A stretch of DNA of 55,587 nt from Bacteroidetes bacterium MED-G20 (GTDB lineage: Bacteria > Bacteroidota > Bacteroidia > Flavobacteriales_D > Parvicellaceae), in NCBI GenBank assembly GCA_002457645.1, contig NTKH01000002.1:1-55587 (forward strand). Reading direction: 5' to 3'. Within the stretch, counting starts at the first letter, position 1, and each line of letters opens with the position of its first letter. The notes below the pieces were generated by a model. It searched no databases, had not been told where the DNA came from, and saw only the letters and a list, made by a program, of their open reading frames with translations. Positions 2,598-33,133 of this stretch are shown here, piece by piece. A program made the translations under genes and the position numbers.

Positions 2598-3833
2598 TTA
2601 ATTGATTTTATAATCAAAAAACCTTTTATCCCTTGGATTTCTTTCTCTTTCAATACTTACTTTTCCATTATCATTAATTTCATTAATTAACCTACTTCTT
2701 AAGGTTTTAGAAGAATCTTGATTTAGGTGCGTAATTTCAAGAATAGCATCAAGTTCGTCCCTACTTATTTTTGACCCTTTTATGTTAATTAATTTATTTT
2801 CTAATAATAAAGAACCATTGATCAAATTACTACTTGAAGACTTTTTGACACTTAAAAAAGTAAAAAAGGACATCATAAGGATTATAATAAGTCCAATAGT
2901 TAGATATAATATCCTTTTAGGATTAATACTACTGTTATATCTTGATAAATATAAATCAGGGAAATTACTTGTCAAATAATTTTTTGCTTTAGAAATATTT
3001 AAAGAATCTAATACAATGTTGTTATTTCGATAATACATCATACTGTCAATAATATATGCATAAGATATTCCATTAATAGACTTTCTGTCCTTAAAAAATG
3101 TATTTTGAGTAAGTTTTCCAGTCTCATTATCGAAAACTTTAATTTCGCATTTATTGTCTCTTATATAACTTTGAAATATTGAATATCTTGATTGACTGTA
3201 ACCCAATAATGCTCTTGGGGCTGTTAAAGCAAGGGGAGAATCATCATTAAATTGAAATTCTTCCTTGTAGTTAGATGTTTTCATATCTATACTACCAAAT
3301 GAATAATTATTTTCTTCAGAAAGTAGATTGAAAAGAACAAATAAATTATCTTCATACAACCAAGAGGATATTACTCCATTTATTTGAATAGGTAAATTAA
3401 CAACTTTCTTTAAAAACCACTCTCCTTTAGCAAAATCAAATTCTATTAGTTTTCCAAAGGAATTGAACAATCCTGCACCACCCAAACTATAAACTTTATG
3501 GTTATGGTAAAAAAGGTGTCTATGAAAAGTAGATCCATGATATTTACTAATACTCAACTTTTTCACAATAGTTGAATCTTTAAAAACAATTTCAAATAAA
3601 TGAAGTGTTCCATTAGGGTTTAAATATGCAAGAGTATCATTGACTAGTATAAAACTGTCAAAAAAATGTTCGTCTAGCCTTAATATATTAGAGTCAGGAA
3701 CTAAACCTTTACACTTTTTAATTATATGAGAAGTGTCAATTAATGGGGGTGTTTTTGCATTTGTGACATTTAAAATTGAAATAAAAATGATGAAAGATAG
3801 ATACTTAAATATAGAGTTACAGTTCATAAACAT
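2598..3833 (-). CDS. Membrane protein: extracytoplasmic kelch-like propeller, one TM helix, cytoplasmic winged-helix-like tail
   Basis: The predicted protein is about 411 residues. An N-terminal signal-like hydrophobic stretch (residues 8-27) precedes roughly 280 residues with a kelch-like strand pattern (VYSLGGAGLFNSFGKLIEFD). A strong TM helix (about 309-331, ILYLTIGLIIILMMSFFTFL) leads to a short charged linker and a C-terminal module of about 55 residues (ISRDELDAILEITHLNQD to NPRDKRFFDYKIN). The tail, with its RSRLINEIN and DKRFF elements, resembles a winged helix-turn-helix. The layout suggests a one-component sensor that reads something outside and acts on DNA or RNA inside; that role is inference. 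The frame extends to a TTG two codons upstream, but ATG codons at 3833 or 3827 are better starts. It stands alone with gaps on both sides. I cannot name a family with certainty. Confidence 0.75.
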   Translation of the reverse strand: MFMNCNSIFKYLSFIIFISILNVTNAKTPPLIDTSHIIKKCKGLVPDSNILRLDEHFFDSFILVNDTLAYLNPNGTLHLFEIVFKDSTIVKKLSISKYHGSTFHRHLFYHNHKVYSLGGAGLFNSFGKLIEFDFAKGEWFLKKVVNLPIQINGVISSWLYEDNLFVLFNLLSEENNYSFGSIDMKTSNYKEEFQFNDDSPLALTAPRALLGYSQSRYSIFQSYIRDNKCEIKVFDNETGKLTQNTFFKDRKSINGISYAYIIDSMMYYRNNNIVLDSLNISKAKNYLTSNFPDLYLSRYNSSINPKRILYLTIGLIIILMMSFFTFLSVKKSSSSNLINGSLLLENKLINIKGSKISRDELDAILEITHLNQDSSKTLRSRLINEINDNGKVSIERERNPRDKRFFDYKIN

Positions 3834-3931
3834 TAACAATTATTTTAAATATATAAACTACGATTATATTAAATAAGTAACAAAGGTAAATTGACGTAAT
3901 TAACTAAAAAAATGATGAATAATTAAAATTA

Positions 3932-4889: not shown

Positions 4890-6269
4890 TTAACGATCCT
4901 TTAAACTTTCTAAACTCGAATATATCTTTAATGCCTTATCAAGTAAAGACTCTGAATATTCATGATCAATTATTCTATTATTAACAAAACCAGTTAATTC
5001 ATTTGGTTTGTATTCTATATCTATGCTATTGAGTATTAATTGAATAGTTTTTTCAGGGTAAAGACAGTAATGTTCATATTTTATTAACACAATTTGCTCA
5101 TCTAAAATATTTAAAATGTAGTTGTAATAGTTGGTCCAAACTTCAAGCCAATAATTTAAAGAGCTTAAATCAAAATTGTAACCTTTAAAATCGTTTTTAA
5201 AATTAAATGGTTTATGGTTCATTCCAAATTCATGATGGGCAAGCCATTGCATGTACTTTATTGCAAATTTGTTACTTTTTTGTAGTTGAATAGTTTTAAA
5301 GTGTTGATTTAACAAAGATGCAGCATGATAAAGAGGGTGTCTAAATAATACAATCATTTTGAAGGACTGATTATAATTAATCATTGATTTATACCTCAAA
5401 ATAAAATTGTTGTTCTTAGCAAGATATATCTTAGAATTATTCTTACGAACTATTTTTTGATATTTCATGTATAACTCGTAATTACTTTTTGAAATTTTGT
5501 GAGTTTGAAGAAATTTTTCATCTATAAAATTGTCTTTCTTAATGACTTTAAAAAAGTATTCTTCTAATGCTTCTATAGTATCTAATCCCATTAAGATTCC
5601 ATCTTCATGGCTTCTTTCTCTTAATTCTGACTTTTTAGGGCTATAAATTTTTTTCCACATATTAGGTGCTAATAAAAATGGCATATTAGAATAGTCTAAG
5701 GAGCTAAAAGCCTCTGTTCTATAGAGGGATTTAGTTAAACTTGTTGTTCCAGACCTTGCCAAACCAGAAACAATTACAAAACAATTTTTATTACTTATAT
5801 TTTTAGAATATTTCTTAACTTCTCTTGATAACAACTTTAATCCAATATTATAGTTATCTAAAATTAAAATGTGAAGTAATTTACTCAATTCAGTATATCC
5901 ATTCATTTTCTTCTGAAATGGAAAAAATAAAGGAATCGAACTTCCTAAACATATTGCAAGAATTGAATTTAAAGAAGTCCAATCTAAATCTTTCAAATTC
6001 AAAACCCTGTAGTATGAAAATAATAAAGGGATAATTAATACTAATATTAATCCTATTATAAGTATGATTAATAAAGCAGCTAAGCTTTTAAAAGCTAAAA
6101 ATGTATACTTCTGTATGCTTTTAACCTTTAGGTTTTCTTCCTCATTAGATAGCATTGCATCCAGAAGTGAAACACTATTTATTGCAACATTATAAAAAGA
6201 ATTTTTATTGAATACTAACCAATAAAAAGTAATCAAAAAAGAGAGGAATAATAACCCATAATATATCAT
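4890..6269 (-). CDS. Membrane-anchored PAPS-dependent sulfotransferase family protein
   Basis: The 459-residue protein has three hydrophobic segments at the N-terminus (about 2-20, 62-86, 102-118) and a sulfotransferase domain from about residue 163 to the end. The 5'-phosphosulfate-binding loop is visible as FVIVSGLARSGTTSLTKSL and the 3'-phosphate-binding strand as FKMIVLFRHPLYHAASLL. Enzymes with these motifs transfer sulfate from cytosolic PAPS to a hydroxyl or amine acceptor. The membrane anchor suggests a lipid-linked or envelope acceptor, which is inference. The start lies 2 bases after the stop of the 45-residue microprotein, which itself overlaps the ASST-like gene, so the three are very likely translationally linked. 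The family is secure; the substrate is unknown. Confidence 0.88.
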   Translation of the reverse strand: MIYYGLLFLSFLITFYWLVFNKNSFYNVAINSVSLLDAMLSNEEENLKVKSIQKYTFLAFKSLAALLIILIIGLILVLIIPLLFSYYRVLNLKDLDWTSLNSILAICLGSSIPLFFPFQKKMNGYTELSKLLHILILDNYNIGLKLLSREVKKYSKNISNKNCFVIVSGLARSGTTSLTKSLYRTEAFSSLDYSNMPFLLAPNMWKKIYSPKKSELRERSHEDGILMGLDTIEALEEYFFKVIKKDNFIDEKFLQTHKISKSNYELYMKYQKIVRKNNSKIYLAKNNNFILRYKSMINYNQSFKMIVLFRHPLYHAASLLNQHFKTIQLQKSNKFAIKYMQWLAHHEFGMNHKPFNFKNDFKGYNFDLSSLNYWLEVWTNYYNYILNILDEQIVLIKYEHYCLYPEKTIQLILNSIDIEYKPNELTGFVNNRIIDHEYSESLLDKALKIYSSLESLKDR

Positions 6270-6271
6270 GA

Positions 6272-6409
6272 TTATTTACCTTTCTTAAATATATTTTTGA
6301 TTTTTATCCAAATTATATAGCCAAAGGCAAAAAGTACAATTCCAGCTATTAAAAAAATTAACAACATTGATCCTATTCCCATTCCAGGTCCTATGTAAAA
6401 TATAGTCAT
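6272..6409 (-). CDS. 45-residue single-pass membrane microprotein with FYIGPGMG motif
   Basis: A short frame reads MTIFYIGPGMGIGSM, then a hydrophobic segment of about 23 residues (LLIFLIAGIVLFAFGYIIW) and a basic end (IKIKNIFKKGK). Its ATG shares one base with the TAA of the ASST-like gene (TAATG), and the sulfotransferase ATG follows its stop after 2 bases, strong evidence that it is translated. The Y-I-G-P-G start resembles short membrane tails I associate with some bacterial phosphatase or phosphodiesterase proteins; I cannot confirm homology here. The likely topology is N-out with a positively charged cytosolic end. It may be an assembly factor or subunit linking the periplasmic ASST-like protein to the membrane sulfotransferase; this is inference. 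Confidence 0.75.
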   Translation of the reverse strand: MTIFYIGPGMGIGSMLLIFLIAGIVLFAFGYIIWIKIKNIFKKGK

Positions 6410-7689
6410 TAATTATAGCTTATTACTTTTATCCAATTTGGTAAATGATGATATCCATTATGTTCAGAATTTAGAACATTTTTATATAAAACAGAATTAT
6501 TTTGCAGGACCCATAAAATCCCATCATTTTGTTCCTCAACAAAATATGTAGAATCATTCAACTGCTCCACCATTCCCTCTGTATTCGTGAAGATTTCATT
6601 AACTTTAAATACTCTTTCGTCTAGTCTAATCAATTTGTTAGATGCAAGATTGTATTTAAAAATAGAGGAATGAAATTTTGAGAAGTTAATCATATCGTCT
6701 GAGTTTGGGATAGATTTTTTATTTTCTGCTGGGAGCACCATCGTATTGTTATTAAAAAATAATAATATTGAATCATTTAAGATATCAACATCATGCTGAC
6801 AATAAAAACCTCCTTCAATAAAATTTATTAATTTATTTGTAGATGGTCGGTAATGAAAAATACATGACAAGTTCCTTGAACTAATAAATACATCTCCCTC
6901 ATTAAAATATTTTGAGTTGTATAAAGCAGGTTCTACATCATTTATGTGAAAAGGATCATCAGTATTTGGAGATTTCAAAATTAAATTCATCAAATTGTTT
7001 TCTTTCAAAAGTTCCATGATAGACTTGTGAAAAATAATTTGCCCAGTGGATGCATCTAGTTTAGTAATTTGATTATCAATAAATTTTATTTCATTGTCAT
7101 TTAAAATGTATTTTCCCTTAAAATAAATATGTTTTTTTGGTTCTCTTAAATAACTACAAACCCAAATATTTTCATCCTTATCTTTATTAATTGAATGATG
7201 GTGAATAATACTATCTTGAGACCACAAAAAAGAACCAAATTTATCAACTTTAGTGATTCCGCTTACCCCATTATAAGAATAGCATATTGAAGAGTCACTT
7301 AGCATGACAGGGTCTATAATTCTATCGTGCTTTTGAAATGGATTTTTAACTGTCCATTTATATACAGTTTTTGAATTTTTTAAATTTATAAGTTCTATAA
7401 CTCGCTCCTTTACAGAACTAGTGTAACTGCTTAAAACAATCAGATCTTTTTCAAGGTTATTTATTGTATAAAAATCTTTATTTGTTTCAATAAATGTATC
7501 AGGAAGTTTTTTTACTTCAGCTATAGCTTTGCTAAAAATATCTGGGAAACTAACAAAAACTTTTAATGACTTGGAAATTACTCCTTGTTCTTTTTTGTCT
7601 TCATAAACTTGCTTTACACACCATCCAAATAAGGATAAGAAGAAAATAAATAAAATTATCTGTGATAAGAGTAATAAAAAATTTTTCAT
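6409..7689 (-). CDS. Arylsulfotransferase (ASST)-like membrane-tethered periplasmic protein
   Basis: The 426-residue protein has an N-terminal TM anchor (about 4-23) followed by a propeller-like domain. Residues matching the ASST active-site signature can be picked out: a His cluster (HHH at 163-165), H248 and N250 in DPFHINDVEP, R272 in ISSRNLS, and H299 in YCQHDVDIL. In E. coli AssT the corresponding residues, including the sulfated histidine, carry out PAPS-independent transfer between phenolic sulfates. Assignment rests on motif matching by eye. The gene starts 17 bases after the DUF5723 gene and overlaps the microprotein gene by one base. A membrane-bound ASST next to a PAPS-type sulfotransferase is unusual; a sulfate relay across the inner membrane is one hypothesis. 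A generic propeller without catalysis is the alternative. Confidence 0.78.
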   Translation of the reverse strand: MKNFLLLLSQIILFIFFLSLFGWCVKQVYEDKKEQGVISKSLKVFVSFPDIFSKAIAEVKKLPDTFIETNKDFYTINNLEKDLIVLSSYTSSVKERVIELINLKNSKTVYKWTVKNPFQKHDRIIDPVMLSDSSICYSYNGVSGITKVDKFGSFLWSQDSIIHHHSINKDKDENIWVCSYLREPKKHIYFKGKYILNDNEIKFIDNQITKLDASTGQIIFHKSIMELLKENNLMNLILKSPNTDDPFHINDVEPALYNSKYFNEGDVFISSRNLSCIFHYRPSTNKLINFIEGGFYCQHDVDILNDSILLFFNNNTMVLPAENKKSIPNSDDMINFSKFHSSIFKYNLASNKLIRLDERVFKVNEIFTNTEGMVEQLNDSTYFVEEQNDGILWVLQNNSVLYKNVLNSEHNGYHHLPNWIKVISYN

Positions 7690-7706
7690 TTTTTAAAAAG
7701 AAAATG

Positions 7707-9542
7707 CTATAACTTTCTGGAAACTTTTCGAAGTGTACTTCCACTAGGAGCAGATTCTTTCACTTTTGCTTTAAGCTCTCCTTTCCTAGTTTTTTTCTTT
7801 TTCTTTTTCTTTTCAGATTTACTATTATAATCTGCTTTAGAGTTCGACTTTTTACTTTTTTCTGATCTAGATTTTTGGTTTGAATTACCTTTAGAATTAT
7901 AATCTGTTCTTTTGGGAGCTGAATTAGTTGTTCTACCTGTAGGTAGTACTGTTTTAGTAGAAGACCCTCCTTTATCTTTTTTACTAGCGGCTGGAGTGAC
8001 AGTTGATTCTCCGTTATTTTCTTCACCACTGCTAACTGAACTAGCCCTGTTTTCATCAGCGTCATCAGATGGCTTTTTCTTCTTATCTCTTCCAAACGTT
8101 AAATTAATTCCAAAATGAACTTGACCATTTCTGACTTTTTTAGTTTCTATATTAATACTAGATGAACCATTATTATTAAGAAAGTTATCTCTTGTGTTTA
8201 GTGTTCCAAAAGCTAAAATATTGTCTGTAAGTACATATATTTCAAATGGACCAAGATTTAACGATATACCAGCACCAAAATTAGAATAACTTCTATTATA
8301 AATAGAATAGCTAGCAGTAGCAGAAAGAAAATTCCCAAGATGATAATTATAAGCTACTCCCAAACCTCTTCTCCATCGCTTTCTAACAAAAGAAGAATAA
8401 AAACTAAGAGAAACAAAATTATTATGGTCTACAATATACTCCATTGAGGCATAAATTTTTGTTCTTAATGAAGTGCTGTAACTAGGGTTGGAGTATTGGT
8501 AATTATCTTTAAGAGATTCTTCAATAGAATCTTCTAAAATTTCCTTTAGAAAACTTACGCTTGTCCCATCTCCAAAAATTGATATCGGATTTGAAATACC
8601 ATCATATGTATAATCCCAAGCCGAAAGATAGGAGTTTGCGGTGTAGCTATTCCAATTAATAAATCCAAAATCTAATACTGAAAATTCTAATAAGAGTTTA
8701 TCATTTACATGATAATTAAATCCAAGATCTATTCCTAAACCTCGATTATTTCTATTGAACAAATAATTATTAATATAATTTTGATCCAATCCAGATTGTT
8801 GCATTTGTAGAGAATCTCCTGTATCTATGGCGCCAATAGCTGGGATATCTCCATCAACCATCACTAGCGGTAGTCCAGCTGTTCTAAAATCAAAACTCAT
8901 ATCAAATGTTAGTGCGTGAGTATTCTGGTCTGTTGTTATTCCCATGTAACTAACATCAGTGGTAAAATTCTCCATGCCATATAAATATTTCAACCTTGCT
9001 CCATAAGAAAATTTATGATGCACATCATGAACCCAGTGAACCGCATATTCCCTCCAGTGTGTGAAATCAAATCCTAATCCATCAAATGAGGCTCTTTTAC
9101 CAAGAAGATTATTACCATTTCCTTCTAAACCTAGAATAATTAAATCCTTTGGGTAGTTAAAAGTAAAATCAAATTTCTCTGTGACATTGAAGGAAAAGAA
9201 ATTATTTTCTTTTTTAAACCCTAAAAAAATTAGATCTGTACTTCCATTTAAAATAAAAAAATTTTCGCTCGCCATTTTAGATATTGCATTATCTACATCT
9301 GGCATCATAATTCCATTAGCATTTTGATAAAAAAGATCTCCCATTGAAAATCCAGTGTTAAATGCTGAGCCATAAATACTCGAAATAATAGGCAATCCAA
9401 TATCTAATTTAGAATCTGGGAAAGAAGCCGGATCTACCTGAGTAATTTGAGGAATAGAAGGCATGTGATACAAGATGAAGTCTTGTTGAGCTAAAACTCT
9501 ATTGAGCAAAAATAAAGTAGATATTAAAATTATTTTTTTCAT
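7707..9542 (-). CDS. DUF5723 family outer-membrane beta-barrel protein with polybasic C-terminal tail
   Basis: The protein is about 611 residues: signal peptide (MKKIILISTLFLLNRVLA), then about 470 residues of alternating amphipathic strands typical of a porin- or PorV-like Bacteroidota barrel (DUF5723 from memory; QVDPASFPDSKLDIGLP near the start). The last ~115 residues change completely to a low-complexity tail rich in Lys, Ser and Asn, including a run of seven Lys and a duplicated DYNSK. The ATG at 9542 shares one base with the TGA of the upstream lipoprotein gene, so the two are coupled. The tail is unusual for a barrel, whose last strand is normally at or near the C-terminus. It could bind acidic glycans or peptidoglycan; that is inference. 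Confidence 0.85.
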   Translation of the reverse strand: MKKIILISTLFLLNRVLAQQDFILYHMPSIPQITQVDPASFPDSKLDIGLPIISSIYGSAFNTGFSMGDLFYQNANGIMMPDVDNAISKMASENFFILNGSTDLIFLGFKKENNFFSFNVTEKFDFTFNYPKDLIILGLEGNGNNLLGKRASFDGLGFDFTHWREYAVHWVHDVHHKFSYGARLKYLYGMENFTTDVSYMGITTDQNTHALTFDMSFDFRTAGLPLVMVDGDIPAIGAIDTGDSLQMQQSGLDQNYINNYLFNRNNRGLGIDLGFNYHVNDKLLLEFSVLDFGFINWNSYTANSYLSAWDYTYDGISNPISIFGDGTSVSFLKEILEDSIEESLKDNYQYSNPSYSTSLRTKIYASMEYIVDHNNFVSLSFYSSFVRKRWRRGLGVAYNYHLGNFLSATASYSIYNRSYSNFGAGISLNLGPFEIYVLTDNILAFGTLNTRDNFLNNNGSSSINIETKKVRNGQVHFGINLTFGRDKKKKPSDDADENRASSVSSGEENNGESTVTPAASKKDKGGSSTKTVLPTGRTTNSAPKRTDYNSKGNSNQKSRSEKSKKSNSKADYNSKSEKKKKKKKTRKGELKAKVKESAPSGSTLRKVSRKL

Positions 9543-11167
9543 CAAAATATTCTTCCAGAGACTAGTAACGCCATTGATAATCCTAACTTATAATCATTAT
9601 AAATTTTAACTGGCTGTTGATTGTTGTAATCAACTGTTCCAGCAGTTACAAGCAATATAACATGTTTGGTTTCATTTAAATTGTTTACACACCCTTCATC
9701 ACAAGCTAATTCAGTTATTGTTATAGTAGATGATTCTACTCTGCCATTTAAATCTAATGTCCCAGACTGAATAACTAAGGTGGAATCAGCAATTGAAGAG
9801 AGCTCATTGTAAGCGCTATCTAAAAGTTTAAGTGTAAATGTAACTTCAAGTGGCCAACCGTTTGTAGTGACAAATTTAATAACTGCTTCACTAATTTCTG
9901 TTTGTGAAGAAAACAACTCATCTACTTTGAAATCAAAAGGAATAGTATCCCCCATTTGCCATCCTCCAGCGTATCCTTCAAGAGGAAGAGTTATTTCTGT
10001 AGCTACTGAAATTTCGCTAGAACTTAGTACGAAATTGTTATTTGTTATTGTTGAATCTGCATTTACTACAACAACTGGATTACTTATAATTTGTTTTGGG
10101 GTTGCATTTATTAATTCATCTATGCTACTATTGCTAGCATTCATAGATAATATGGAGCTTACAGAATCACCTTCCACTATTGGTTGTTGAATCGTAGGAA
10201 AATAAAATGGTGCTGCTTGAAGATTGCCAGAAGCTGATGAATCATATAAAATGTCAGCTAAAAATAATCCTTGTAAATCTTCATAATACATTTGCTGCAT
10301 GCCCATGTTTGCTTTAAATCCAAAACTATTTTGTATGGTGTGTTTGATTTCTGGGTTTGTTAATAAAAAATCAATTGCATTTTCAGAATTTTTAAAAATA
10401 TCTATCTCCAGTGGTACAGAACCAAGATCAAATTGTTGGTATTTTAAATCTCCATAAATAGCTTCAAATTCAAGGTTATCCATAGAAAATGAAAAGCTTA
10501 AATCATCAGAAACATTGATTGGGCTTCCAGATCCATTGATGGTAACATCAAGATATACAACCATATCATTGTATCCATTGTTTCCCTTAGTCAAATCAAA
10601 ATTATAATTACTAAGATTAGCTTGAGTAACTGCAGAATTATTAGCATTAGCTATTAGGTTATCATTGTAGGAATTTCCTTGGTCGTTCACTAAGGAAGGT
10701 ATAGAAATACTAAGAACAACTTCGTGACTCAAATTGTTGACAATATTTATAGTAAGAATACCCTGAGAAAAAACAATAGCGGTTAATTCTTCACCGTTTG
10801 GGAATGAAAAAGCATTGATATTCGTATCTTGGAAATTAACTGATCCTGTAAAAACAGGGAGAGTACTTGGAGCGGGATTCACAGAAACTGAGAAAGATTG
10901 ATCAGGAATATCAATAATTTCTCCTGCATTAATAGTTGTTTTTGGAGTTACATAAGCTAAAAAAAGTTCCCCATTATTTCCGGTACTGATAATATCTCCA
11001 GTGTCACTTTGAAGCATGTCTTCAACATCAATCTCTGCGCTTATAAGAGGGATTGCAACATTATGATAAGTTTGTAAAGTAGATAAATCTACCTGCTCAC
11101 CCTTTTTACAGGAAAATAATATTAAAGAAAGTAATAACCCAGCAAATGTTTTATGAAGCATATTCAT
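9542..11167 (-). CDS. Large surface lipoprotein, beta-rich, unknown function
   Basis: The 541-residue protein starts with a lipoprotein signal (LLLSLILFSC) followed by KKGE. The remainder is beta-strand rich with many Ser, Thr and Asn, and its pattern of short repeated Ig-like sandwiches (FTGSVNFQD, VEFEAIYGD-like) suggests an extracellular fold. No catalytic motif is seen. It is the first gene of the apparent operon with the DUF5723 barrel, the ASST-like protein, the microprotein and the sulfotransferase. The pair lipoprotein plus barrel suggests a surface complex. About 157 bases separate it from the divergent transporter gene. Confidence 0.8.
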   Translation of the reverse strand: MNMLHKTFAGLLLSLILFSCKKGEQVDLSTLQTYHNVAIPLISAEIDVEDMLQSDTGDIISTGNNGELFLAYVTPKTTINAGEIIDIPDQSFSVSVNPAPSTLPVFTGSVNFQDTNINAFSFPNGEELTAIVFSQGILTINIVNNLSHEVVLSISIPSLVNDQGNSYNDNLIANANNSAVTQANLSNYNFDLTKGNNGYNDMVVYLDVTINGSGSPINVSDDLSFSFSMDNLEFEAIYGDLKYQQFDLGSVPLEIDIFKNSENAIDFLLTNPEIKHTIQNSFGFKANMGMQQMYYEDLQGLFLADILYDSSASGNLQAAPFYFPTIQQPIVEGDSVSSILSMNASNSSIDELINATPKQIISNPVVVVNADSTITNNNFVLSSSEISVATEITLPLEGYAGGWQMGDTIPFDFKVDELFSSQTEISEAVIKFVTTNGWPLEVTFTLKLLDSAYNELSSIADSTLVIQSGTLDLNGRVESSTITITELACDEGCVNNLNETKHVILLVTAGTVDYNNQQPVKIYNDYKLGLSMALLVSGRIF

Positions 11168-13454: not shown

Positions 13455-13868
13455 ATGTATCCAGAAGAAGTAGTTGCTCCATTCAGAGAAGATTTAACGT
13501 CAAAAGGTTTTAAAGAACTTACCTCAGCTGAAGAAGTCGATAATCAATTAAACTCTAATGAAGGCACCAAATTAGTAGTTATCAATTCAGTATGTGGTTG
13601 TGCCGCAAGAAATGCGAGACCAGCTGCAAAAATGGCTATTGAAAATGATCAAAAACCAGATGAAATTTTTACTGTTTTTGCTGGTTTCCATAATGAGGCT
13701 ACTAACCAAGTAAGGAAATATTGTCTTCCCTACCCCCCATCATCACCAAGTATGGCTCTTTTTAAAGATGGGAAATTAGTTCATTTTATAGAAAGACATC
13801 ACATAGAAGGTCAGCCTGCCGAAGTAATTGCAGAAAACTTGACAGAAGCTTTTAAAGAATATTGTTAG
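13455..13868 (+). CDS. BrxA/BrxB-type bacilliredoxin
   Basis: This 137-residue thioredoxin-fold protein has the diagnostic CGC motif (VINSVCGCAARNARPA, C47-G48-C49). The family, known from Bacillus YphP/YqiW, removes bacillithiol or similar low-molecular-weight thiols from proteins after oxidative stress. A nearby superoxide dismutase fits a redox theme, but the two are on opposite strands. The end overlaps the convergent gatC stop by 4 bases. Confidence 0.93.
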   Translation: MYPEEVVAPFREDLTSKGFKELTSAEEVDNQLNSNEGTKLVVINSVCGCAARNARPAAKMAIENDQKPDEIFTVFAGFHNEATNQVRKYCLPYPPSSPSMALFKDGKLVHFIERHHIEGQPAEVIAENLTEAFKEYC

Positions 13869-14158
13869 CCTTTATCTAAAACTTTAGGAAGTTTAAAATA
13901 GGTTCCATCTTTAGTTGGACTATTGAAGAGCGCTGCTTTCTGAGAAAGCATATCATCTATTTGATCTTCTCTCCAAATATTAGCTTCTTCATTAATATGA
14001 ATAAGAGGTTCTACTCCACTGGTATCCAAGTTTTCAAGTTGATTAATAAAATCTAGCATTTTCGATAAGTCTTTGGAAATCAAATCCATTTCGTTTTCAT
14101 TAAAATTTAGCTTTGATAAACTAGCTAGTTTTGATATTGCTTCTCTATTAATTTCCAC
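13865..14158 (-). CDS. gatC: Asp/Glu-tRNA amidotransferase subunit C
   Basis: The 97-residue protein matches GatC: ISKLASLSKLNFNENEMD at the start, DLSKMLDFINQLENLDTSG, then VEPLIHINEEANIWREDQ. GatC bridges GatA and GatB in the complex that converts Glu-tRNA(Gln) and Asp-tRNA(Asn) to the amides. The start codon is GTG at 14158, inside the end of plsC, so the gene is translationally coupled to plsC (11-base overlap). gatA is 10 kb away and gatB is not in the window. Confidence 0.92.
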   Translation of the reverse strand: MEINREAISKLASLSKLNFNENEMDLISKDLSKMLDFINQLENLDTSGVEPLIHINEEANIWREDQIDDMLSQKAALFNSPTKDGTYFKLPKVLDKG

Positions 14159-14885
14159 TATTTAACTCGTTATTTATAATATTAAAAGTTTGCTCCCTCA
14201 AATTTACTAAATCTTTTCTAGTTAAATTATCAATTGATATAGGTTGGTGCACGATAATATTTGCTGTTCCAGGTTTGGCATTGCCGGATATATCTTTATG
14301 ATCTGTAAATAAATCATAATTATTTTTAAAAGTAACTGGTAAAATTGGACAACTTGTATCAATAGCTAATTGAAAAGCTCCATTTTTAAACTTTCTCATT
14401 ACTTTTTCTGAATTATCCCATCCTCCTTCGGGAAATATCACCACACTTCTGCCCTTCTTTATCTCTTTTTCAGCAATAATTAAACATTCCGCTGCTCTGG
14501 TTTTACTGTCTCTATAAACGGGAATATCTACTCCCCTTTTGAAAAAGATGTTGATTACAGGCCATTTTAATAACTCTGATTTCCCTAAAAAAGCAAAATC
14601 TATGTCAATTACTAAGTACATTAAAACAATATCAAGGTAGGACTTGTGATTGGCACAAATTATATAGTTATCATTGGAATTTAAATTGGAAAGAAAGGTT
14701 ACTTTGGTCTTAATTCCAATGGCTTTAGACATGTAAGTAGCCCAAAAAGTTTTAATTCTTTTAGCAACTAAATTTTTTCTCTTTCCTCTTACAAATAAGA
14801 ATATAGGAATTGATAAAATTATACAAAATACTATGTATATCAATCCGAAGTATAAATAAAAAAGATATGATAATATTTTTTTCAA
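14148..14885 (-). CDS. plsC: 1-acyl-sn-glycerol-3-phosphate acyltransferase
   Basis: The enzyme acylates lysophosphatidic acid to phosphatidic acid at the inner membrane. The 245-residue protein has an N-terminal hydrophobic anchor (LIYIVFCIILSIPIFLFV), the catalytic NHxxxxD box (NHKSYLD, H80 and D85) and the glycerophosphate-binding VVIFPEGG box. The only start before the first helix is TTG at 14885. It is upstream of and overlaps gatC. Confidence 0.9.
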   Translation of the reverse strand: MKKILSYLFYLYFGLIYIVFCIILSIPIFLFVRGKRKNLVAKRIKTFWATYMSKAIGIKTKVTFLSNLNSNDNYIICANHKSYLDIVLMYLVIDIDFAFLGKSELLKWPVINIFFKRGVDIPVYRDSKTRAAECLIIAEKEIKKGRSVVIFPEGGWDNSEKVMRKFKNGAFQLAIDTSCPILPVTFKNNYDLFTDHKDISGNAKPGTANIIVHQPISIDNLTRKDLVNLREQTFNIINNELNSGN

Positions 14886-14922
14886 AAAAATTGATAACTT
14901 ATTTTAAAAATTAAATAAAATT

Positions 14923-15021
14923 ATGAAAAAAATATACCTTTTAACATTAACAATAGGCTTTCTTTCCTCATTTAGCATAACAACTGATGATGTCTCAAAT
15001 AAGGGAATACAAAAAGGATAA
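14923..15021 (+). CDS. Possible 32-residue exported peptide
   Basis: The frame MKKIYLLTLTIGFLSSFS followed by ITTDDVSNKGIQKG has the charge, hydrophobic core and small-residue end of a signal peptide, leaving about a dozen mature residues. An AT-rich tract precedes the ATG. It lies alone in the gap between the divergent plsC and trpS genes. Coding is supported only by composition and layout; it may be a remnant of a longer gene or non-coding. Confidence 0.4.
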   Translation: MKKIYLLTLTIGFLSSFSITTDDVSNKGIQKG

Positions 15022-15122
15022 TATTATAAGATTTCAATTTAAAACTCAAAAAAATTAGTCCCAAATATTTCATTATATATTAATAAAATCCAACTAAATT
15101 TACATAACAATTAAGTAATAAA

Positions 15123-31621: not shown

Positions 31622-33133
31622 TTGAGTTCGATTAGAAAATTAATAGGTCAAACAGCTATTTATGGATCAAGTAGCATTATAGGTCGATTTCTTAATTTTC
31701 TGCTAACTCCATTATATGTAATCCAATTTTCTAACGAGCAATATGGAATAATTACAGAGATGTATGCCTACGTTGCTTTTTTAGTAGTGCTACTAACTTA
31801 TGGAATGGAAACCGCATTATTTCGATTTTCTAATGAGAATAAAAACAACTTTAATCAAGTATATAGTAATACTTTGTTCTCCATTCTTTCAACTTCTTCC
31901 TTTTTCATTTTAATAGTAAGTATATTTTCTCAGGATATTGCCAATCTACTTAAATATCCTGAACATGCCGAATATATTATTTGGTTTGGTATGATAGTAG
32001 GTATCGATGCAATCTCTTCAATGGCCTTAGCACAACTCCGACTTAAAGAAAAAGCGAAAAAATTTGCACTTATTAATTTTTTGAATGTTGGTGTCAATAT
32101 AAGTTTAAACTTATTTTTTATCCTTTATTGTAAAGTTAATCATGATAATGGTTATTCTAATTGGATAATAGACTCCCTCTATAATCCTGAAATTGGAGTA
32201 GGTTACGTTTTTATTTCCAACTTAATTGCAAGTATCATTAAATTTTTGGCATTAATTTCTGAAATGAATTTTAGCGGCAATTTTGATTTTTCAATTATAA
32301 GGTCCATGCTAAAATATTCTGGACCAATGCTTTTAGTAGGGCTAGCCTATGTTATCAATGAGACCTTAGACAGAGCTATGTTAAAAGAGATTTTATATAG
32401 TCAGTATTTAGAGTCCGGAATTAGCAGGACAGAATCTTTAAAACTCGCACTATCTCAAAATGGGATTTATGGTGCAAATTATAAAATCACTATGATTATT
32501 AGTATGTTTATTCAAGCATTTAGATATGCTTCTGAACCCTTTTTCTTTAAAGATGAAGTAAATAAGAATTCTAAAGAAACCCTATCCAAAGTGATGAATT
32601 ATTTTACAATCATGTTAGTATTTATATTTTTAGTAATTACTCTTTATCTTCAATTATTTAAATATTTTATAAATAATCCTGATTATTGGGAAGGTTTAAA
32701 TGTTGTTCCTATACTATTGGGTGCTAATATTTTTCTTGGTATTTATACTAGCTTATCCATTTGGTATAAATTATCAGATAAAACTATTTATGGAGCCTAC
32801 ATATCTGGATTTGGGGTTTTAGTAACTGTAGCTATTAATTTTTTATTAATTCCAAAATATGGTTATTTGGCATCTGCTTATGCTACTCTATCGTGCTATG
32901 GCTGTATGATGATTCTAAGTTATTTTCTTGGTCAAAAACATTATAAAGTTCCCTACAACTTAAGGAAGTTTTTTATATATATGGGTTCAGGAATTTTAAT
33001 TTACATTTTAAGTATTCCAATTAATCCAACACAAAATCTTAGTCTTCTTCAATATGGTTATCACACTTTCCTATTGATTAGTTTTCTAATTTTGGTTTTA
33101 ATTATTGAAAAACCATTTAGTAAGATCGTTTAA
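31622..33133 (+). CDS. Polysaccharide flippase (MATE/Wzx-like oligosaccharide transporter)
   Basis: The 503-residue protein has about 12-14 TM helices and a typical start (SSIRKLIGQTAIYGSSSIIGRFLNFLLTPLY). The family moves lipid-linked oligosaccharides across the inner membrane. The start is TTG at 31622. In many Bacteroidota this gene precedes dut and the TPR-DUF4292-EnvC series, as here, indicating a conserved envelope-biogenesis cluster. Confidence 0.9.
   Translation: MSSIRKLIGQTAIYGSSSIIGRFLNFLLTPLYVIQFSNEQYGIITEMYAYVAFLVVLLTYGMETALFRFSNENKNNFNQVYSNTLFSILSTSSFFILIVSIFSQDIANLLKYPEHAEYIIWFGMIVGIDAISSMALAQLRLKEKAKKFALINFLNVGVNISLNLFFILYCKVNHDNGYSNWIIDSLYNPEIGVGYVFISNLIASIIKFLALISEMNFSGNFDFSIIRSMLKYSGPMLLVGLAYVINETLDRAMLKEILYSQYLESGISRTESLKLALSQNGIYGANYKITMIISMFIQAFRYASEPFFFKDEVNKNSKETLSKVMNYFTIMLVFIFLVITLYLQLFKYFINNPDYWEGLNVVPILLGANIFLGIYTSLSIWYKLSDKTIYGAYISGFGVLVTVAINFLLIPKYGYLASAYATLSCYGCMMILSYFLGQKHYKVPYNLRKFFIYMGSGILIYILSIPINPTQNLSLLQYGYHTFLLISFLILVLIIEKPFSKIV

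Follow-up and report, generated by a model that had tools for sequence, protein, structure and literature searches.

A recurring cassette encoding a PAPS-type sulfotransferase, a YGPG microprotein and a predicted ASST-family propeller: a candidate membrane sulfation module

LpsS and NodH are cytosolic PAPS sulfotransferases of surface glycans and nod factors, respectively; their point of likeness to the cassette described here is PAPS-dependent sulfation of envelope or exported molecules. To our knowledge both act before export and without an ASST partner. The ASSTs reported so far, one atypical report excepted, do not use PAPS, which is a cytosolic cofactor, and instead take sulfate from aryl sulfates via a sulfo-histidine; for most bacterial ASSTs neither the natural sulfate acceptor nor the role is known (PMC13426309). 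For the extracytoplasmic ASST of E. coli CFT073 (AssT, PDB 3ELQ/3ETS), which has DsbL/DsbI in its operon (PMC13426309), no PAPS sulfotransferase partner has been described. Both kinds of enzyme are used in caprazamycin synthesis in Streptomyces, where the donor of the ASST Cpz4 is a phenolic sulfate produced by the PAPS sulfotransferase Cpz8 (PMC4257720), and Cpz4 with this Cpz8-made donor sulfates a sugar hydroxyl (PMC4257720, PMC13426309).

Here we describe a previously undescribed, recurring gene cassette that would pair an intracellular sulfate-transferring enzyme with a different, extracellular one, a plausible route by which sulfate could cross the membrane for surface decoration. Each of the two enzymes belongs to a known family, and Cpz8/Cpz4 is the closest system. 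The cassette was found in the window, by which we mean the whole 55,587-nucleotide stretch of DNA analysed. It is contig C12 in a MAG of Bacteroidetes bacterium MED-G20 (G000) that is 63% complete and 1.27 Mb in size.

The original prediction had grouped five minus-strand genes (Table 1) into one envelope sulfation operon. The ORFs and their close spacing are as it described. The lipoprotein and barrel genes overlap by 1 base when the ATG at 9542 is taken as the barrel start and by 4 bases with the TTG start, 17 bases separate the barrel from the ASST gene, the ASST and microprotein genes overlap by 1 base, and 2 bases lie between the microprotein and the sulfotransferase (ST); no terminator-like hairpin was found on the minus strand at these junctions, again in agreement. 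Pfam assigns the ST to PF13469 (Sulfotransfer_3; E 7e-9, 36.7 bits against a cut-off of 27), the ASST to PF14269 (Arylsulfotran_2; E 1.2e-28, 100.9 bits against 27) and the barrel to PF18990 (DUF5723; E 4e-77), with all 10 aligned homologs of the ASST and all 10 of the ST matching the same families; no Pfam family was found for the lipoprotein or the microprotein. As a single unit, the proposed grouping stands for the ASST, microprotein and ST, which occur together more than chance would give, and falls for the lipoprotein and barrel.

Table 1. Features of the locus, in window coordinates
Feature	Position	Strand	Basis
PAPS-type sulfotransferase (ST), 459 aa	4890..6269	-	ORF; PF13469; fused N-terminal 3-helix membrane domain
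PAPS 3'-phosphate motif R310-x7-S318 of ST	5316..5342	-	R310, S318 invariant in 26
PAPS 5'-phosphosulfate loop GLARSGTTS, residues 169-177 of ST	5739..5765	-	R172, G174, T176 invariant in 26
Membrane domain TM3 of ST, residues 1-127	5889..6269	-	homolog of stand-alone ~125-aa genes found in other copies
YGPG microprotein, 45 aa	6272..6409	-	ORF; one TM helix, basic C-terminus; beside ASST/ST in 28/30 loci
Predicted ASST-family beta-propeller, 426 aa	6409..7689	-	ORF; PF14269; N-terminal TM helix
H299 of QHD motif of ASST	6793..6795	-	invariant in 26; QHD aligned to Cpz4; by motif, equivalent to the sulfated His436 of E. coli ASST
R272 of ASST	6874..6876	-	invariant in 26 homologs
H248-x-N250, predicted catalytic motif of ASST	6940..6948	-	invariant in 26 homologs
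H164-H165 of predicted propeller cleft	7195..7200	-	invariant in 26 homologs
DUF5723 outer-membrane barrel, 612 aa	7707..9545	-	ORF; PF18990; neighbour outside cassette
Lipoprotein, 541 aa	9542..11167	-	ORF; neighbour outside cassette

The ASST, the microprotein and the ST almost certainly form a conserved functional unit. Across 30 ST loci from Flavobacteriales, two other Bacteroidota lineages and seven alphaproteobacterial plasmids, with ST fragments in G201 and G594 left out, the ASST is adjacent in 29 and the microprotein in 28; since some of the loci come from close relatives, they do not count as independent events, and about six independent lineages are represented. The neighbourhood survey proposed with the original prediction thus finds these three genes linked, not mostly scattered. 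For an independent test, 249 Flavobacteriales genomes were searched with profiles built on the first ten or eleven loci. The ST was found in 16 genomes, all from a different family (f3; genera g213 and g214), and the ASST and microprotein lay next to it in all 15 loci with enough flanking DNA. In two of these 15 the ASST is divided between two ORFs; one of the two also has its ST cut by a contig end. Among 395 genomes of the phylum, the microprotein profile gave strong matches (E 1e-16 or better) in exactly the five that have the intact trio, and the next match (E 3e-5) contains stops. A single-sequence ASST search of the phylum returned distant matches only, family profiles being needed. When the ST of one Bacteroidota genus (f36 g97) was compared by tblastn with 72,556 plasmids, seven matches were obtained, all alphaproteobacterial; the ASST is beside the ST in all seven and the microprotein in six, two have the order microprotein-ST-ASST, and the spread in Pseudomonadota rests on these seven plasmids. 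Over 13 loci the ASST and ST distances correlate (Mantel r 0.76, permutation p 0.0001). Phage and viral collections yielded no ST relative, and two viral contigs with a YIGPG-like DNA match carried no ASST, ST or microprotein match.

The 426-residue protein is a predicted member of the ASST family with a conserved catalytic cleft. The original prediction had picked out H248, N250, R272 and H299 as its signature; these residues are at the expected positions and, together with H164 and H165, are invariant in 26 ASSTs, many only ~20% identical. The ASST profile reaches Cpz4 (PDB 9KF4/9KF6) at 1e-16, in an alignment that matches up the H-x-N, R and QHD motifs; E. coli ASST is reached by sequence at no better than E 0.11. 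A structure model of moderate confidence (pLDDT 57, pTM 0.61) suggests a beta-propeller fold. Its best VIA families are Cpz4 (Z 14.8, 4.7 Å, 256 residues) and then E. coli ASST (Z 14.3), with other propellers less than one Z unit away. The comparison with E. coli AssT proposed as a check therefore points, within the limits of a moderate model, to the same fold and to a conserved histidine cleft, with the same H-x-N, R and QHD motifs. Propellers often bind ligands, and the case for catalysis is a prediction from sequence, so that the protein might conceivably act as a non-catalytic receptor or chaperone for a product sulfated by the ST alone; the invariance of all six cleft residues among proteins this divergent makes such a role very unlikely.

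For the ST, 25 residues are invariant in 26 homologs. The invariant arrangements R172-x-G174-x-T176 and R310-x7-S318 are those expected for PAPS binding in the superfamily. The ST profile reaches tyrosylprotein sulfotransferase structures (4.5e-10); the structure model of the ST is too poor to show a fold (pLDDT 38.6). The N-terminal domain, TM3, is clearly related to the separate genes of other copies (hhalign probability 97.6%, E 3e-12, against E>0.5 for shuffled controls). It stands alone as a gene in f36 g97, Rhodobacter, Sagittula, Novosphingobium and Rhodobacteraceae SC52, and is fused to the ST in the window, Paracoccus, Tateyamaria and one further genome, G412 (f18 g49). In f36 g97, a GC-rich genus with 3.6-Mb genomes that is probably Salinibacter-like judging by GC, size and genes, the order is ASST, GGPG microprotein, 127-aa membrane protein, ST, beside a glycosyltransferase. 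Pfam family, conserved motifs and the three-helix domain all agree with the view that the locus combines two classes of sulfotransferase, a membrane-anchored PAPS-type enzyme and an ASST. The window's genome encodes an APS kinase (1.6e-59), so the host can make PAPS; as a marker for the cassette, PAPS supply proved uninformative, APS kinase being common in the window's family (30 of 39 genomes).

Pfam and NCBIfam searches with the microprotein gave scattered weak membrane-protein matches only. In genus g213 it forms the N-terminus of the ASST, and this fusion bears on topology: there is no charge before the first helix, eight Lys/Arg fall within the 20 residues between the two TM helices, and the propeller follows the second, a pattern by which the propeller should be outside. 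Alphaproteobacterial microproteins have a signal-peptide-like start, ending AxA, before YxGPG, implying that the YxGPG motif is at the outer face. The loops of the ST would fit a cytosolic catalytic domain, and the two enzymes are probably on opposite sides of a membrane, which is in keeping with the earlier placement of the ASST outside it. Since linkage is strict and the small membrane partners are fused to one enzyme or the other, the ASST, microprotein, TM3 and ST may well form a physical unit.

The lipoprotein and barrel present a different picture. Barrel matches occur in 25 of the 39 genomes of the window's family and ST matches in three (G000, G301 and G303), and in 11 relatives that have no cassette the orthologs of the lipoprotein and barrel are found at the same locus, from which we take them to be co-located core genes. 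An EamA gene is conserved with them, and usually also the downstream genes for a 213-aa and a 76-aa protein. In G316 and G300 the slot separating the barrel from the 213-aa gene has no gene in it. In seven other relatives it holds, on the opposite strand, a CotH-like gene (PF08757) for a lipoprotein-like protein of ~655 aa (L062 4235-6193, and the same slot in L063-L066, L068 and L072), so that it looks like a small replacement hotspot. The five-gene arrangement of the window does recur in G303, which is in the same genus as the cassette-free G300. Between the window and G303, identities are 57, 77 and 47% for the cassette genes, 58% for the lipoprotein and 43% for the 213-aa protein; since the cassette thus resembles its neighbours, transfer and descent from a shared ancestor followed by losses are equally likely. 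The shared strand, the gaps of at most 17 bases and the G303 arrangement are what speaks for a true five-gene operon for envelope sulfation and export, with the barrel and lipoprotein as the exporting or exposing parts. That reading is extremely improbable and we reject it, given that both genes occur without the cassette in the 11 relatives and neither lies alongside any distant cassette examined; as a rule, the five genes do not co-occur. The co-located genes perhaps share a promoter.

How might two such enzymes work together? The original prediction proposed a relay and knew of no described system of this composition. Literature searches for such a composition found the caprazamycin precedent only, and since Cpz8/Cpz4 uses just such a relay (PMC4257720), the idea is not without precedent. 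As there, a PAPS sulfotransferase and an ASST are encoded together (here in nearly every locus), and among solved structures Cpz4 comes closest to the window's ASST. The cassette differs from Cpz in its conserved microprotein and membrane domain, in its recurrence in unrelated bacteria and in its envelope or housekeeping settings, compared with an antibiotic cluster, and its relay is a proposed one. The Cpz carrier, moreover, is a type III PKS pyrone, and no type III PKS (PF02797) was found in G000, G301, G303 or G412, all of them incomplete MAGs; on this basis a Cpz-type pyrone carrier was rejected. PF02797 is present in the f36 g97 genomes, far from the module. As this carrier-synthase feature was not found, the cassette is not classed as a Cpz8/Cpz4 system; the simplest reading would be Cpz8/Cpz4 chemistry placed across a membrane.

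We infer the topology, the carrier and its movement, the acceptor and the direction of flow as follows. The ST, which its three-helix domain would anchor to the inner membrane on the cytosolic side, would move sulfate from PAPS onto a membrane-soluble carrier, which we guess to be a phenolic or quinol-like lipid. The charged carrier would reach the outer face of the inner membrane, where the membrane-anchored propeller of the ASST, partnered in the membrane by the YGPG microprotein, would take the sulfuryl group onto H299 and hand it on to an acceptor in the envelope; a surface glycan or glycolipid is the likeliest one. A self-contained, four-part membrane sulfation module running this relay is the best explanation of the data, and we favour it with modest confidence. 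Its support comes from linkage, the fusions, the correlated divergence of the two enzymes, the invariant residues, the charge pattern of the g213 fusion, the nearness to Cpz4, an APS kinase gene adjoining the G412 cassette and the copies that lie in glycan clusters; against it, the module has no conserved carrier synthase, the neighbours of the cassette vary between copies, and the structure models are of moderate (ASST) and poor (ST) quality.

In G412 the order is ASST, microprotein, ST and then directly the APS kinase (PF01583, 7e-67), which makes PAPS, all within a glycan-biosynthesis cluster with adjoining glycosyltransferase, nucleotidyltransferase and GHMP-kinase genes. This arrangement, pointing as it does to PAPS being spent, argues against flow in the inward direction, in which the ASST would load the carrier from external aryl sulfates and the ST, in reverse, would make PAPS or use the sulfate. 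Some PAPS sulfotransferases can indeed resulfate PAP from aryl sulfates (PMC13426309). With the APS kinase placed as it is in G412, we nevertheless regard an inward flow as highly improbable. Sulfate, moreover, is abundant in the sea.

Several other cassette copies are inside O-antigen or glycosyltransferase clusters, and the acceptors may be surface glycans. In the window's family, in g213 and in some plasmids no glycan genes flank the cassette; in the window itself, no obvious glycan cluster adjoins the cassette. Some copies sit among unrelated genes, as in G505, where the cassette separates two CoA-transferase subunit genes (both PF01144; L148 6394-10747), and the acceptor may therefore be a general envelope component. 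The copies in glycan clusters, together with the use of free aryl sulfates as donors by known ASSTs (PMC13426309), would suit two independent sulfations of one exported product, the ST acting on a cytosolic precursor and the ASST acting outside with environmental aryl sulfates. We consider this unlikely: the strict linkage and the fused small membrane partners suggest a physical unit, and in open seawater an ASST that had to rely on donors from its surroundings would be in a fragile position. In Salinibacter ruber, strain-variable O-antigen regions are rich in sulfotransferase and glycosyltransferase genes, and sulfonated extracellular metabolites differ by strain (PMC3669384, PMC6060240); these reports are context, not evidence for the present cassette.

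If the relay holds, the cassette gives a testable answer for one ASST branch, namely that its donor is made by a partner enzyme. The YGPG microprotein and the TM3 domain represent two new small membrane families, and the cassette offers a marker for surface-sulfating marine bacteria, including plasmid copies in culturable Rhodobacterales and Novosphingobium. More tentatively, and as a possibility we rate below an even chance, the relay could be portable, using some widespread membrane molecule, for instance a quinol or phenolic lipid, to bring PAPS-derived sulfate across the inner membrane and allowing bacteria to sulfate their surface after export. The occurrence of the cassette in unrelated neighbourhoods would then be explained, because a portable relay needs no dedicated carrier synthase.

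Finally, several individual loci deserve description. In the window, a 413-aa protein (2598-3839) that begins with a signal-like stretch, has a TM helix near its middle and matches no Pfam or NCBIfam family is encoded beside the 76-aa gene, as also in G310, and a polysaccharide-flippase-like gene (PF01943) lies on the other strand at 31622-33133, ~20 kb from the cassette. The exceptions among the 30 ST loci are L100, which has neither propeller nor microprotein, and L088, in which no microprotein was found in the plasmid region. The latter, on a Rhodobacteraceae SC52 plasmid, has two ASST-like genes (7836-9251 and 13668-15074) amid O-antigen genes and a second, unrelated sulfotransferase. In L100 (G147; 8764-9438) a single deletion took the propeller and microprotein, joining the first helix of the ASST in frame to the membrane domain of an intact ST. 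G147 and G195 also carry second ASST copies (L060 and L061) with no ST or microprotein nearby, that of G195 having an in-frame stop that suggests decay. In G201 (L103), an 85-aa ST fragment near an APS-kinase-like gene (3206-3460 and 4936-5673) is likely to be a remnant of a G412-type cassette.
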